Source: Agreia sp. COWG
GTDB lineage: Bacteria > Actinomycetota > Actinomycetes > Actinomycetales > Microbacteriaceae
Reading direction: 5' to 3'
Assembly: GCF_904528075.1 (NCBI RefSeq)
Contig: NZ_LR882035.1
Coordinates: 1,178,001 to 1,242,000, forward strand
Length of the DNA: 64,000 nucleotides
Shown here: in pieces, positions 49,359 through 54,173 of the stretch
How positions within the stretch are numbered: the first letter of the stretch is position 1
Layout of the letters: each line of letters opens with the position of its first letter
The notes under the pieces: generated by a model
Seen by the model: the letters and a program-made list of their open reading frames with translations, nothing else
What the model was told of the DNA's origin: nothing
Database searches by the model: none
Position numbers and translations under genes: made by a program

Positions 49359-50297
49359 TCAGGGGCGGGACTCGCCGAGCAGACCGAGGGCGGCGAGCGT
49401 GCCGACAGGGCGCTCGATGTGAGCGAAATGGCCGCAATCGGGCACCTCCGTCAACACGATGCCGGGGATGACGACGATCAGGTCTGCCAGATCGGACGCG
49501 GGTACGAACACGTCGTCTGCGCCCCGGACGGCCCAGACAGGGCACCGGACGGTGGGCCACAGCCGGGAGGTGGCATAGCCACGCGTCTCTTCGGCCGCAC
49601 GAACGAACGTGTCGGGCCTCACCTCGTCGGCGAGGGCATCGATGACGCTCTGCGGCATCCTGGCCGGGTGCCTGAACAGAGGCGACATGAGAACGCGCAG
49701 GAGCCCGAGCCGGCGCGCGAGAAGGACGGGGCCGCTAGCTCGATCGCCGAATGTGCGCAGCACGCGGAACACGCCGAGCAGCATGGTGAACGCCGGCACC
49801 TCTCCGAAGCGCCTGAGAGGATGCTCGATGCTCTCGAGGATGGCGAACGACGTCGACGACACGAGCCGCACCGCCGTCACACAGTCCGGACGTGTGGCCG
49901 CCAGGTGCAACGCGATGAACCCGCCGAGCGAATGCCCGACGACATCGACCCGTTCGTAGCCCAGCGCGCCGCGCACGACCTGCCACACCGTATCGGCCAG
50001 CGCATCCAGGGTCAGGCGAGACCGGATGTCCGGGCCGGGCGAGTCGCCCCAGCCCGGCAGATCGATGGCGACAATATCGCCGAGGGGATGTCCCTCGGCT
50101 ACGGCGGTGGCCAGCATCGGTGTCCACGTCGTCCAGGATCCGGCAGCGCCATGCAATAACAGGGTTGCTATGGACGACGTGCGATGCGGTGAGTGGCGAA
50201 CGGCGACGGAGCCGAGCTCGGTGTCGACCCGGCTCGTCGTGAGGCCGAGTTCGCGATCGTCGGCGACGAGACCGCGCGGAGCGTAGGGCTCGCCCAT
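49359..50297 (-). CDS. alpha/beta-fold hydrolase
   Basis: The 312-residue product has the alpha/beta hydrolase core: TLLLHGAAGSW (oxyanion region), the nucleophile elbow VDVVGHSLGGFIAL with Ser, a cap domain, and the late CPVWAVRGADDVFVPASDL and PDCGHFAHIERP, holding the Asp and His of the triad. The substrate is unknown. Its ATG overlaps the stop of the HTH_42 gene by one base (TGATG), indicating coupling. Confidence 0.9.
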   Translation of the reverse strand: MGEPYAPRGLVADDRELGLTTSRVDTELGSVAVRHSPHRTSSIATLLLHGAAGSWTTWTPMLATAVAEGHPLGDIVAIDLPGWGDSPGPDIRSRLTLDALADTVWQVVRGALGYERVDVVGHSLGGFIALHLAATRPDCVTAVRLVSSTSFAILESIEHPLRRFGEVPAFTMLLGVFRVLRTFGDRASGPVLLARRLGLLRVLMSPLFRHPARMPQSVIDALADEVRPDTFVRAAEETRGYATSRLWPTVRCPVWAVRGADDVFVPASDLADLIVVIPGIVLTEVPDCGHFAHIERPVGTLAALGLLGESRP

Positions 50298-51430
50298 CAC
50301 GCGGCGCCTACGGTCATCGAGCCCGGCCGTAGCCCGAGGAATCGGGCGTATCGTTTCGCGGCGGAGTTCACGCGAAGGTATTCGGAGCCCGAGAGCGGGG
50401 CGAATGGTGTGACGTGAACGTCGACGATCGATCGTCTCGTCTGCCGCTGCCACGTGCCGACGATTTTGCCTTGCGAGACCAGCATGGGCAGGAAGATTCC
50501 GTTGGAGCCCGGAACCACGGCGGGGCTGTGCTCTTCGGCGAGTTGTGCCGTGCGGTCCCGGTAGCCCAGGAGGTACTCGTCGAAGCCGGGGAGCAGCAGC
50601 GTGCTGGGGCGGCGGGCGGCCCCACTCTCGACATCGGGGTCCAGGGGCCTCGTCGCCGAGCTGAAGTAGCGGCTGCCGTCGATGACGGTCTCTGCCAGTC
50701 GATCGCGGGCGCCCTCGATCGCCGATGTGGCCTCGGGCACGAGGATGTTGCTCCACCAGAGCAGGTCGCGGGCCGTGGCCGGTCCGTGTGTCTCGAAGTA
50801 GCGCACGGCGAGTTCGGTGAGGGCCTCGGCACGCGACAGCTCGCGGGGCTGCCGGATCCACTCGCTGGTCAGCACGACGGACTGGCCCGTACCCGCCGTA
50901 GGGCCGAGGCAGACGAGGCCGATGTGGCTGAGGTACCAGAGCAGATTGCTGCCGCGCTGTCTGGCGGTATCGATACCGGCGAGCTCGAGTTCTGCGTAGA
51001 GTTCGTCCCGCGTCAACCGCACCCCGCCGCGGAGGATCGACCGGGTGACGTCGCTGGCGCGAGCGAAGACCGCTTCATCGAGCCCGAGCTGTCTCTGCCG
51101 CGTGGCGGCGCTCCGCACCGTGCGTGCGCTCGTGAGCGCGAGCATCCAGCCCAGTTCTTCGGCCGCGACCACGTGCAGGGTGCCTCGGAACGGCCATGAT
51201 CGCACGAGCGCGCCGGAGTCGAAGGCAGCATCGATGTCGGCGACGGTGGAGCGCGGGCTGCGCACGCCCAGCGCCCACTTGGCGGCGGCGAAGTCCTGGG
51301 CCTGCACCGCGAGCATGCCGGATGCCGCCGCCACCGGGTCGAGAGCGTCGCCTCGTGTGGCGGGCTGGCCCGCAAGACGCTGGCTCTCGAGCCTGCGCCG
51401 CCGCAGAAGCATCACTTCAGCGCGTTGCAT
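50297..51430 (-). CDS. winged-helix HTH_42 protein (YcaQ/AlkZ-like), possible DNA glycosylase
   Basis: The 377-residue product belongs to PF06224, with GMLAVQAQDFAAAKWALGVR near residues 40-57 and STLLLPGFDEYLLGYRDR. AlkZ and YcaQ of this family are DNA glycosylases that remove alkylated or crosslinked bases using a QxQ motif; here QAQ sits at that position. It could act in DNA repair, in line with the degenerate DnaE2-like gene just upstream, but this is inference. Homologues with other motifs are not known to be active. Confidence 0.85.
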   Translation of the reverse strand: MQRAEVMLLRRRRLESQRLAGQPATRGDALDPVAAASGMLAVQAQDFAAAKWALGVRSPRSTVADIDAAFDSGALVRSWPFRGTLHVVAAEELGWMLALTSARTVRSAATRQRQLGLDEAVFARASDVTRSILRGGVRLTRDELYAELELAGIDTARQRGSNLLWYLSHIGLVCLGPTAGTGQSVVLTSEWIRQPRELSRAEALTELAVRYFETHGPATARDLLWWSNILVPEATSAIEGARDRLAETVIDGSRYFSSATRPLDPDVESGAARRPSTLLLPGFDEYLLGYRDRTAQLAEEHSPAVVPGSNGIFLPMLVSQGKIVGTWQRQTRRSIVDVHVTPFAPLSGSEYLRVNSAAKRYARFLGLRPGSMTVGAA

Positions 51431-51473: not shown

Positions 51474-54134
51474 TTAAGACGCTTCGCGGCGAGGTCGGCG
51501 CTGGGCGGCTTGCCACTGCGACCAGAGGGTGCGAACGTCCCATGCCGCGCTCACCTCGACGAGGGGGCAGCCGTCGTCACCGTCTCTGACCGTGCCCTCG
51601 ACCAGCACGAGGCGTGAGCCGGACAGCTGGGTGCCGAGCTGCCTCGCTTCGCCGCCGAATGCCGCGTCGAACGAGGCGGTGCCGTCGTCGATGCTCATGA
51701 CGATCGTGCGGTCGGCGCCTTGCCGCCCGATGGCGCGCGACGTCGAGCGGCTTCCGGCCACGATCACCGTCGAGCCGCTCTGCTGCCATGAGAGATCGCT
51801 CGCACGCATGGCGCCGATCTCGTCGAGCAGGGGGCGATAGTCGTCGATGACGTGACCGATCGCGTTCCCGAGCCGCACGAGAGGCGTCGTCGTCTCGCTG
51901 GGTGACACCGCTGCATCGCTCGGCAGCGCGACCGGGGATGACGGTTCATCAGCACTCTCGACGTCAGCCGTCGAGACGTCAGCACTCTCGATGGCGTCGG
52001 TCTTTTCTGCCTCGTCGATATCGAAGAGGGCGAAGGCCTGCTGCGCGGCAGCCCGCCGCGCCCGTAACGATGTTGCGGTGTGCCGCCGGACCGCCGCCAT
52101 CACCGTGACGCGACTGGGCTCACCGGGCAACAGGGTGTCGAGGGCGCCCGCGTGTCCCAACGCCGAGAGCAGCGCGGTCGAGGGCTGCACCCGTCTGACG
52201 AGCTCGGCGAGGTCGGCGTACGGTCGACCACGCCGGATGTCCGCGCGCTCCAACGGCGTGATGCCCGGCACCTCGTCGAGCGGCAGCCGAATCGCCAGGA
52301 TGACGTCGTCGGGATCGGCGAGCACGCCGTGAGCCGTCGGCGGCTCGACTCGTTCGACGCCATAGCGCTCGGGCGACAGATTCACGTCGAGGGCGAGGAT
52401 CGGAACGCGCATGCGTTCGGCCTCGGCGATGATTGTGCGTCGTCGTGACCTGTTCGTTTCGTGCCGGAGGACCCCCGCCAGGAATTCCGCCGGGTAGTGC
52501 GTCTTCATCCAGGCGCCCCGGTAGGCGGCCGTGGCCGTGGCAGTCGCCGATGAGGGTTCTTCATCGCCGAAGAACGTCACGAGGTCGTCGAATGCATCGA
52601 GCTGCGCCAATCGGAGCCGCCGCCGCGCATCCCTGGTGTCGTTGTGGGGCTCGTCGTCGTTGTGTTGGTCGTTGTCGTCGAACGAGGCGATGCCGACCGT
52701 CTTCCCGCGCCGGAGAGTGTCGAACGTGGCCAGATCGTCGAGCGGGAGCGCGTCGAGATCGATGACCCCCGACGGATCGACGTACGCCGCATCGGCCGAC
52801 AACCCGCCAGCCCTTCCGGCCTTCTCGCCGTGGACGAGGGCTATCTGCGATGCGGCGAAGGCCAGCGCGCCGAGGGCGGGGTCGTCGACGAGAAGAATGG
52901 TGAACAGCCCCAGGCCGCGCAGCTCGTGTGCGTCGATGGAGGTCGTCAGTACCTCGGCGTCGTCGACGGGCAGTATGAGGCTCAGCCGAACGTCGCTGAC
53001 GACGATCGCCTCGGCACCCGCACACGGCCGGTCTATCGAGGAGTGCAGGCGCGCGAGCCCCACCCTGTCGTGGCCGAGGCGCCGCTGAAGTGCTGCAATC
53101 AGCTCGTGCCGCCGGTCGGGGTCGACGAGCAGCCGCGGGAACGGCTCCGCGGTCTCTTCGGTGCGCGCCGCTCGCGTCGGTCGAACCGGGTCGATGACCG
53201 TGCCGATGATGTGCAGCGAGCCCAGGATCGAGGTGATCGCCTCGAGGATCGTCGCGGAGCTCGACGGGTTCGAAGACGAGTTCCACCAGAGGTCGTCGGC
53301 CTGTAACCGACACCGGTCCGCCACACGTTCCGTGTTGTCGAGCATCGCATCCGCCACCCTTTTTGAAAGTCGCGAGTGCGCCACGATCGACTCGGCCTCC
53401 CTTCTCATCACGTGGGGAGGCTTCAGCCAGGCATCGGACACCGGCCGCGTCTGGAACGCATCGAGCGCGAGGGGTCCGCCCGCGGCATCCGGCATCGGCA
53501 CAGGCAGAATCGGCGCTTCGCCCCGGTGGCGCACGGCGTTGCTGAGGATGGCGGGTACACCCATGGAATCTGCGAGTTCGAGGGCGCGGACCGCCTGCAG
53601 CATGCCGTCGGCTGCGTCGTTGCCGGGACAGACCACCTCGATGGCGATGGCCCCCGGAAACTGGGCAAGCCAGTGACTCAACAGCAGGGCCGCGCTGTCG
53701 GCGTCGGCCGCCGCGATGGCCTGCCCCACGTCGGAGAACGGCCCGAGAAGGACGGTGCCGCGGGGGCGGTCGTCGTCGTCGATGAGGGCGAGCCTCAGCT
53801 GCTGCCGTCTGACGCCCGCCTGTGCCGAGGCTCGAACCGAGCTGACGAGCCCGCACAGGGCCGACCACCCGTCGCCCCTGCGTTGGCCGTGGGCGAGAAC
53901 GGTGACGTGGCCGGCGTGGGGGTGCAGGGTGAGCTCGGCACCCACGATGGGGTCGAGGCCAGCCTCTATGCAGGCCCGGATGTGACGGATCGCGCCTCGA
54001 AGATCGTCTCGGTCTGTCAGGGCGGCGGCCGTGGCGCCGTGCGCGCGGGCCTTTGCGACGAGCTGTTCGACGCTGGCGCTCGTGTCGCCGGGGGAGAAGA
54101 GAGAGGCCACGTGCAGGTGCGTGAAACGGGGCAC
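51474..54134 (-). CDS. degenerate DnaE2-like protein (PHP, truncated polymerase core, OB fold)
   Basis: The 886-residue product follows the order of the error-prone polymerase DnaE2: PHP domain (HLHVASLFS, ALTDRDDLRG, GLDPIVGAELTL), a shortened palm/thumb (about 280-410), the segment LPLDDLATFDTLRRGKTVGI (464-482), fingers with WMKTHYPAEFLAGVLR, helix-hairpin-helix (VPGITPLERADI) and a C-terminal OB fold. The catalytic triad appears broken in my by-eye alignment: PDIDVD-type motif is PRLLVD, so the first Asp is Leu336 (Asp338 kept), and the third is Glu404. GRGSAANS was not found. The PHP also lacks the usual DHG. It starts at a GTG behind AAGGGAG. It is unlikely to polymerise DNA; a structural or regulatory role in repair is possible. 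Confidence 0.85.
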   Translation of the reverse strand: MPRFTHLHVASLFSPGDTSASVEQLVAKARAHGATAAALTDRDDLRGAIRHIRACIEAGLDPIVGAELTLHPHAGHVTVLAHGQRRGDGWSALCGLVSSVRASAQAGVRRQQLRLALIDDDDRPRGTVLLGPFSDVGQAIAAADADSAALLLSHWLAQFPGAIAIEVVCPGNDAADGMLQAVRALELADSMGVPAILSNAVRHRGEAPILPVPMPDAAGGPLALDAFQTRPVSDAWLKPPHVMRREAESIVAHSRLSKRVADAMLDNTERVADRCRLQADDLWWNSSSNPSSSATILEAITSILGSLHIIGTVIDPVRPTRAARTEETAEPFPRLLVDPDRRHELIAALQRRLGHDRVGLARLHSSIDRPCAGAEAIVVSDVRLSLILPVDDAEVLTTSIDAHELRGLGLFTILLVDDPALGALAFAASQIALVHGEKAGRAGGLSADAAYVDPSGVIDLDALPLDDLATFDTLRRGKTVGIASFDDNDQHNDDEPHNDTRDARRRLRLAQLDAFDDLVTFFGDEEPSSATATATAAYRGAWMKTHYPAEFLAGVLRHETNRSRRRTIIAEAERMRVPILALDVNLSPERYGVERVEPPTAHGVLADPDDVILAIRLPLDEVPGITPLERADIRRGRPYADLAELVRRVQPSTALLSALGHAGALDTLLPGEPSRVTVMAAVRRHTATSLRARRAAAQQAFALFDIDEAEKTDAIESADVSTADVESADEPSSPVALPSDAAVSPSETTTPLVRLGNAIGHVIDDYRPLLDEIGAMRASDLSWQQSGSTVIVAGSRSTSRAIGRQGADRTIVMSIDDGTASFDAAFGGEARQLGTQLSGSRLVLVEGTVRDGDDGCPLVEVSAAWDVRTLWSQWQAAQRRPRREAS

Positions 54135-54157
54135 GGGGCACTCCCTTCGTAAGGCAT

Positions 54158-54173
54158 TCGAATATATCTTCTA
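54158..54173. promoter_or_regulatory. possible SOS box overlapping the promoter of the DnaE2-like gene
   Basis: TCGAATATATCTTCTA matches the actinobacterial LexA consensus TCGAAC-N4-GTTCGA at 9 of 12 defined positions, which is weak. On the minus strand it contains TATATT, a good -10 box, and its near edge is 24 bases from the GTG start. If real, it would make the gene DNA-damage inducible, like dnaE2. Confidence 0.35.

Follow-up and report, generated by a model that had tools for sequence, protein, structure and literature searches.

The DnaE-type gene at positions 51474..54134 of the window, by which we mean the whole 64,000-nt stretch of Agreia sp. COWG that was analysed, raises two questions: whether its product can still be a DNA polymerase and, if it cannot, whether the remaining protein is kept for some other purpose. 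The gene has a GTG start, encodes 886 aa on the minus strand, as do all window features given below, and is homologous to error-prone DnaE polymerases over the DnaE body. Its N-terminal PHP domain (aa 1–285, 53280..54134) is delimited by a Pfam PHP match (58.2 bits over aa 6–167), by the alignment and by the predicted model, in which the 10-residue pLDDT means of this domain lie at 75–97 except over aa 11–20 and 201–240. The domain is followed by a palm remnant (aa 286–480, 52695..53279), whose fold is partly retained in the predicted model, by a short segment in place of the deleted fingers (aa 481–530, 52545..52694), with residues 488–498 at pLDDT <50, and by a HhH2 region (aa 531–690, 52065..52544; Pfam HHH_6, 28.4 bits over aa 577–668). 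The C-terminal OB-fold domain (aa 761–886, 51477..51854) fell below the Pfam cut-off in the 886-aa protein and is assigned from the model and from structural matches over approximately aa 772–872. Between the HhH2 and OB parts, the stretch QQAFALF (52023..52043), picked by eye, is a candidate clamp-binding-like motif in the register of QPTLPIF in intact Agreia copies; this register reads QPTLPIL in A. bicolorata and is altered, to HPTLPVL, in A. pratensis. The folded models reached pLDDT 78.5 and 83.7, although they depend in part on intact homologues in the alignment. An AlkZ-like DNA glycosylase gene (50297..51430), a likely operon neighbour, lies on the same strand 43 nt 3' of the inactive polymerase gene.

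We set the catalytic register by counting in the intact paralogue along the alignment to E. coli DnaE, which places D401 at the first and D403 at the second Asp of PDIDID, and puts D555 within LKLDVLG. All three catalytic Asp are changed in the window protein: F332 and R334 (53133..53141) match D401 and D403, and L414 (52893..52895) matches D555. A first-pass annotation of this DNA, made from the sequence by eye, had proposed that the polymerase active site was lost, and in this it was right. The register that it gave, Leu336, Asp338 and Glu404, was wrong, as L336 occupies the position of D405 and neither D338 nor E404 is catalytic. The absence of a GRGSAANS segment that it had reported corresponds to a deletion of the RGSG segment relative to intact orthologues, and the protein likewise lacks most of the fingers and a stretch that we take to be the thumb. 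Its reading of a DnaE2-like domain order stands for the homology and for the PHP, HhH2 and OB parts, which remain, and fails for the fingers, which are mostly deleted; a Pfam scan reported no palm and found the fingers under cut-off. With its metal-binding Asp replaced, its RGSG segment and thumb missing and most of its fingers deleted, the protein predicted from this gene cannot be a polymerase. In the accessible text of PMC3919608 the three catalytic Asp are called absolutely conserved in the C family.

The PHP domain indeed lacks the DHG, as had been noted early on, but this is a trait of the subfamily (14 of 15 rows) and not private to the window copy. Across the PHP rows of the subfamily the D-x-H pair is missing in 15/15 and the TDH histidine in 14/15. 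The TDH and D-x-H residues of the genome's own DnaE1, which we presume to be those that bind metal, are missing from the window PHP, and an intact metal site is absent. The PHP metal site thus appears, from the alignment, to be degenerate already in the intact subfamily.

The locus is syntenic with intact DnaE copies in four other Agreia genomes (G002–G005; 1149–1165 aa, with PDIDID), and by position these DUF6504-linked genes are orthologues of the window gene; G006 also has an intact copy of the DUF6504-linked DnaE. A search for orthologues with the same kind of loss, as suggested at the outset, found them in A. pratensis (G001, 944 aa) and A. bicolorata (G007, 967 aa). The G007 protein has 100% identity to a protein recorded for A. 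bicolorata, and the named records came from A. bicolorata, A. pratensis and four further Agreia strains. In both, PVIA[IV]D replaces PDIDID (D401 to V, D403 to A, D555 retained), and an exact 77-aa deletion is common to the two copies. The idea of a recent mutant, raised as a possible objection, is only partly borne out: there are intact orthologues at the same locus in four Agreia, but in A. bicolorata and A. pratensis the loss is older than the divergence of the two copies. A recent private mutation of the window strain is not the whole story, given inactive copies in two more species, and an assembly error is unlikely because the three species come from separate assemblies.

Among 79 named loci retained from 306 relatives for this count, 77 have all three Asp, the exceptions being A. 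bicolorata and A. pratensis. In a motif census of 218 proteins (the best 120 of 135 and the best 120 of 4762 relatives), PDxDxD was missing only in P0121, P0125 and P0139 among the proteins listed, whereas P0051 (a fragment), P0086, P0102 and P0103 lacked another motif pattern. P0139 is a metagenome protein of 987 aa in which, by eye, D401 is replaced by H, D403 is retained, D555 and the RGSG motif are lost and most of the thumb and fingers are missing. A profile of the four altered sequences added no further altered relatives among the best 120 of its 139 matches, and the six new proteins from this search all had PDxDxD.

DnaE1 was found in all eight Agreia genomes searched. Seven of the eight also encode a second DnaE, intact and with a 1139-aa frame, and show a Y-family match 2.5–3 kb upstream of it. 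The G006 assembly (96% complete, 260 contigs) had no Y-family (IMS) match, an absence that gaps may explain. In the three genomes read closely, the second DnaE ends in SRDFR, and it is accompanied by a gene of 212–213 aa in the imuA position, with an ImuB-like protein encoded before it. The window, A. bicolorata and A. pratensis genomes all keep an intact DnaE1 and an intact DnaE2 near the ImuB-like gene, so that the question of whether genomes with an inactive copy also retain a working DnaE2, with a Y-family (ImuB-like) match upstream, is answered positively for all three.

The window genome additionally carries an intact paralogue on its 64-kb second contig (L043:3412-7823, contig C2 of G000), where a DUF6504 gene and a DnaE gene (1114 aa, PDIDID) form a cassette with an SRAP-type gene adjoining. 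Relatives were found on 102 plasmid records (90 from Streptomyces), all at <60% identity (40–52% in the 12 listed). Agreia sp. Leaf210 (L110, L130) has two intact copies of this DnaE subfamily: the chromosomal locus holds one, and a separate contig carries a plasmid-type copy. A search of the G001 and G007 assemblies returned no other full match of this DnaE type, but an intact copy is present in a different A. pratensis record (P0195). The intact paralogue of the window genome, and P0195 in A. pratensis, could make the inactive copies redundant. Where a further copy in the genus is plainly dead, it is a fragment with ~80–90% identity to an intact one; taken as an internal control, this counts towards retention of the full-length inactive frames. 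These broken plasmid-type pieces come from three Agreia genomes (L044:7096-7695, L044:12198-12605, L052:5676-6558 and L053:5656-6108) and comprise two 3' pieces in G000, one 3' piece over two frames in G002 and one 5' piece in G007. The 5' DnaE fragment at L053 follows a DUF6504 gene that looks intact.

A DUF6504 match on the same strand accompanies 69 of the 79 named loci and ends ≤400 nt 5' of DnaE in 58 of the 74 loci with a located start, the inactive two being counted by leader remnants only in both figures. In A. bicolorata and A. pratensis the DUF6504 gene is reduced to a remnant of 18 codons, the same length in both, whose frame stops just before the dnaE start; no DUF6504 trace was detected in the window by tblastn at E<=1. 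We read the window gene as the chromosomal DnaE gene of Agreia, probably of the DnaE2 type, which was once linked to DUF6504 and has lost its polymerase function. The intact DUF6504-linked subfamily is probably DnaE2B, which the accessible part of PMC12926913 describes from Actinobacteria together with a standalone ImuB-C. The likeness lies in the small DUF6504 gene directly 5' of the intact relatives, in the size (~1110–1165 aa) and degenerate PHP site of the intact Agreia DnaE, and in an SRAP gene nearby in several loci; the window, A. bicolorata and A. pratensis copies are unlike DnaE2B in lacking catalytic Asp, the DUF6504 partner, the thumb and most of the fingers. We infer that DUF6504 equals ImuB-C; an hhalign comparison of the two gave a non-significant probability of 0.2%, with a W..WW motif as the sole shared feature. 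The intact paralogue scored 601 bits against PRK05672 (error-prone) and 598 bits against PRK05673 (replicative), both below cut-off. No paper on DUF6504 was found in a literature search to which most subscription papers were closed.

Whether the inactive gene is maintained has to be judged separately for the window copy and for the other two. For the window copy dN/dS is uninformative, because synonymous change is saturated. Its branch carries 1.98 amino-acid changes per site, and under this saturation omega was 0.13 when left free (2dlnL 34.2 versus 1) and 1.37, 0.67 and 0.37 with the neutral branch fixed at 1.0, 2.0 and 3.6, respectively; the neutral branch length suggested by DnaE1 is 0.97 and that by the second DnaE 3.6. 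Domain-specific retention, counted over columns that are at least 90% conserved among 46 unaltered relatives, is the better evidence here. The window copy kept 64/88 columns in the PHP domain (73%) and 28/45 in the HhH region (62%), compared with 14/62 in the palm (23%; Fisher test of retention versus palm, 1e-9 for PHP and 5e-5 for HhH), a contrast that misaligned palm columns near the deletions may exaggerate. The linker kept 10/14, the fingers 24/55, the OB fold 17/42 and the thumb region 6/17 columns, an unevenness that speaks against maintenance.

For A. bicolorata and A. pratensis we used a branch codon model over six Agreia. The 77-aa deletion, the substitutions and the DUF6504 remnant are all shared by the two copies, and inactivation therefore predates the terminal branches of the gene tree. 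Against a background omega of 0.045, the terminal branches had an omega of 0.298 in A. pratensis (bootstrap interval from 73 replicates 0.23–0.38) and 0.251 in A. bicolorata (0.18–0.35), and their stem one of 0.311; omega = 1 was rejected with 2dlnL of 45.4, 28.7 and 9.8, respectively. A topology without the two as sisters, with one omega class fewer, was ~160 log units worse. Neutral simulation predicted 10.9 stops for A. pratensis and 8.9 for A. bicolorata, with no fewer than 3 and 2 in 200 simulations each, and none was observed. Indels were counted on protein alignments only and so provide no separate evidence. The A. bicolorata and A. pratensis copies are thus under amino-acid-level purifying selection after loss of catalysis; the selection that the first-pass annotation had named as support for a pseudo-polymerase is present on both terminal branches, with omega well below 1.

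Among the domains of this inactive clade, omega was lowest in HhH (0.17, background 0.055) and PHP (0.23, background 0.057), followed by the polymerase remnant (0.30, background 0.035), the OB fold (0.44, background 0.020; 2dlnL 9.9) and the linker (0.56, background 0.073), which did not differ significantly from 1 (2dlnL 2.4). Relative to background this is a 3-fold rise in HhH, 4-fold in PHP, 9-fold in the polymerase remnant, 8-fold in the linker and 22-fold in the OB fold. A. bicolorata kept 36/44 conserved columns in palm-N, 25/31 in palm-C and 37/45 in HhH, and in A. pratensis and A. bicolorata only the catalytic hairpin, together with the thumb region, stands out by poorer retention (Fisher 1e-6 and 4e-5). 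Since most palm columns are kept like those of HhH, and given the domain omegas, selection in these two does not single out PHP and HhH.

The same figures are the ground on which a slowly dying gene has to be weighed, one whose polymerase was inactivated, whose body was kept for a time through fold stability or a residual role, and which is now drifting. We consider this a serious possibility that falls short of being probable, strongest for the window strain, where the 64-kb contig supplies an intact copy. Such a gene would show the elevated omega of A. pratensis and A. bicolorata (~6x background overall), most of all in the OB fold, and average values of 0.25–0.30 could mix constrained and recently neutral time. 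The extremely long window branch fits an omega near 1 if the neutral branch is short, and the loss of DUF6504, the loss of one arm of an upstream palindrome in the window and the fragmentary state of other copies in the genus point the same way. What drift does not account for are the zero stops against ~9–11 expected on each of two post-inactivation branches, an omega significantly below 1 on both, and the domain-specific retention of the window copy. We lean slightly towards a maintained non-catalytic protein, the window strain included, and the pattern suggests that a dead polymerase body may have been kept for another job.

Stops would also be selected against if the frame were preserved for the operon, its translation sustaining the downstream AlkZ-like gene (polarity) while the protein itself does little. 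The short distance to that gene on the same strand in the window would suit this account, as would the 18-codon remnant before dnaE in A. bicolorata and A. pratensis, through which translational coupling could persist. It predicts neither an omega of 0.17–0.30 nor domain-specific retention, however, and the AlkZ-like glycosylase gene does not adjoin the intact copy in Agreia genome G003, and we consider it very unlikely. That the protein is still an enzyme, a PHP nuclease or phosphoesterase like the polymerase-dead PolX proteins with published exonuclease activity (PMC9226535 and PMC12926913, in the parts available), is scarcely credible, for although PHP is among the best-kept window parts and dead PolX likewise bears a PHP domain and has lost its polymerase site, PolX belongs to the X family and has an active PHP exonuclease, whereas the Agreia PHP site is degenerate, with the residues of the genome's own DnaE1 largely missing already in the intact subfamily.

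For a maintained non-catalytic protein, a mutasome-binding mechanism can be drawn by analogy, and we offer it tentatively, as possible but somewhat unlikely. The remaining body would bind DNA via HhH2/OB and perhaps the clamp too, and its PHP and HhH2 faces would compete with or escort active error-prone polymerases, namely the DnaE2 near the ImuB-like gene in three genomes and, in the window strain, also the intact copy of the 64-kb contig; mutagenic repair would be tuned as a result. In AlphaFold models of the M. tuberculosis mutasome, as given in the accessible text of PMC12926913, the DnaE2 PHP touches ImuB-C and HhH2 touches the ImuB thumb. A DNA- or mutasome-binding body is favoured because these ImuB-contacting parts also have the lowest omega. 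DUF6504, as the putative partner of the PHP domain, has been lost, and this would indicate a changed rather than a kept interaction. More speculative, and in our view doubtful, is the full scenario that in Agreia a mutagenic C-family polymerase became a dedicated pseudo-polymerase, perhaps independently in two lineages, when thumb and fingers were cut out in frame and the metal ligands were lost, and that the PHP-HhH-OB body competes with or governs active error-prone polymerases, mobile plasmid-type copies included.

Both the Y and the X family of polymerases have known dead members. ImuB, as described in the available part of PMC12926913, is like the Agreia protein in having a polymerase body that has no active site and has often lost structural elements, beside an active DnaE2. 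It differs in being a widespread, established mutasome part of the Y family, whereas the Agreia protein belongs to the C family and dead DnaE was encountered in this analysis in three species and one metagenome cluster. A literature search that included the accessible parts of PMC3919608, PMC3765255 and PMC12926913, most subscription papers being out of its reach, returned no report of a dead C-family polymerase, and a search for Agreia and DNA polymerase returned no title on Agreia polymerases. According to the part of PMC3919608 that is available, its C-family census removed sequence fragments without an intact site. Two of the inactive proteins are already in NCBI as 'PHP domain-containing protein', so that the sequences are known and the reading is new. 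If dead DnaE is maintained, C-family surveys filter out a protein class, and nature has provided a separation-of-function tool for the roles of the PHP, HhH and OB parts of DnaE2 without synthesis.

In the tree of flanking genes, the window species falls outside the other six Agreia (support 100/99). The flanking genes reject a clade of the window species with A. pratensis and A. bicolorata (p-AU 0.0012 with five genes, 0.0008 with six) and also a sister relationship between the latter two (p 0.018 and 0.013). When the polymerase gene itself is used, the best tree splits the window, G001, G007 and P0139 sequences from 12 unaltered rows (support 90/98, on long branches), and neither a clade uniting the window copy with G001 and G007 (p 0.309) nor one of the six other Agreia (p 0.291) is rejected. 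From these trees, the inactive state would either have arisen more than once or have moved between species. In the case of A. bicolorata and A. pratensis, the flanking genes reject sisterhood and yet the gene copies share deletions, which makes lineage sorting or a transfer of the inactive allele from one species to another likely.

A perfect 25-bp palindrome, TTCGAATATAGAAGATATATTCGAA, is present as a single copy per genome in six of the eight Agreia, always 5' of the DnaE locus, and is unchanged in A. pratensis and A. bicolorata, a point in favour of a maintained gene. The full palindrome was not found at ≤3 mismatches in the window genome or G006. In the window the left arm is changed and the right part, TAGAAGATATATTCGAATG (54155..54173), remains, its 19 bp being identical across seven aligned sequences, the window included. 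The palindrome arms are like those of the LexA-type box TCGAA(N6)TTCGA near the gene in the imuA position, but the palindrome has a wider spacing.
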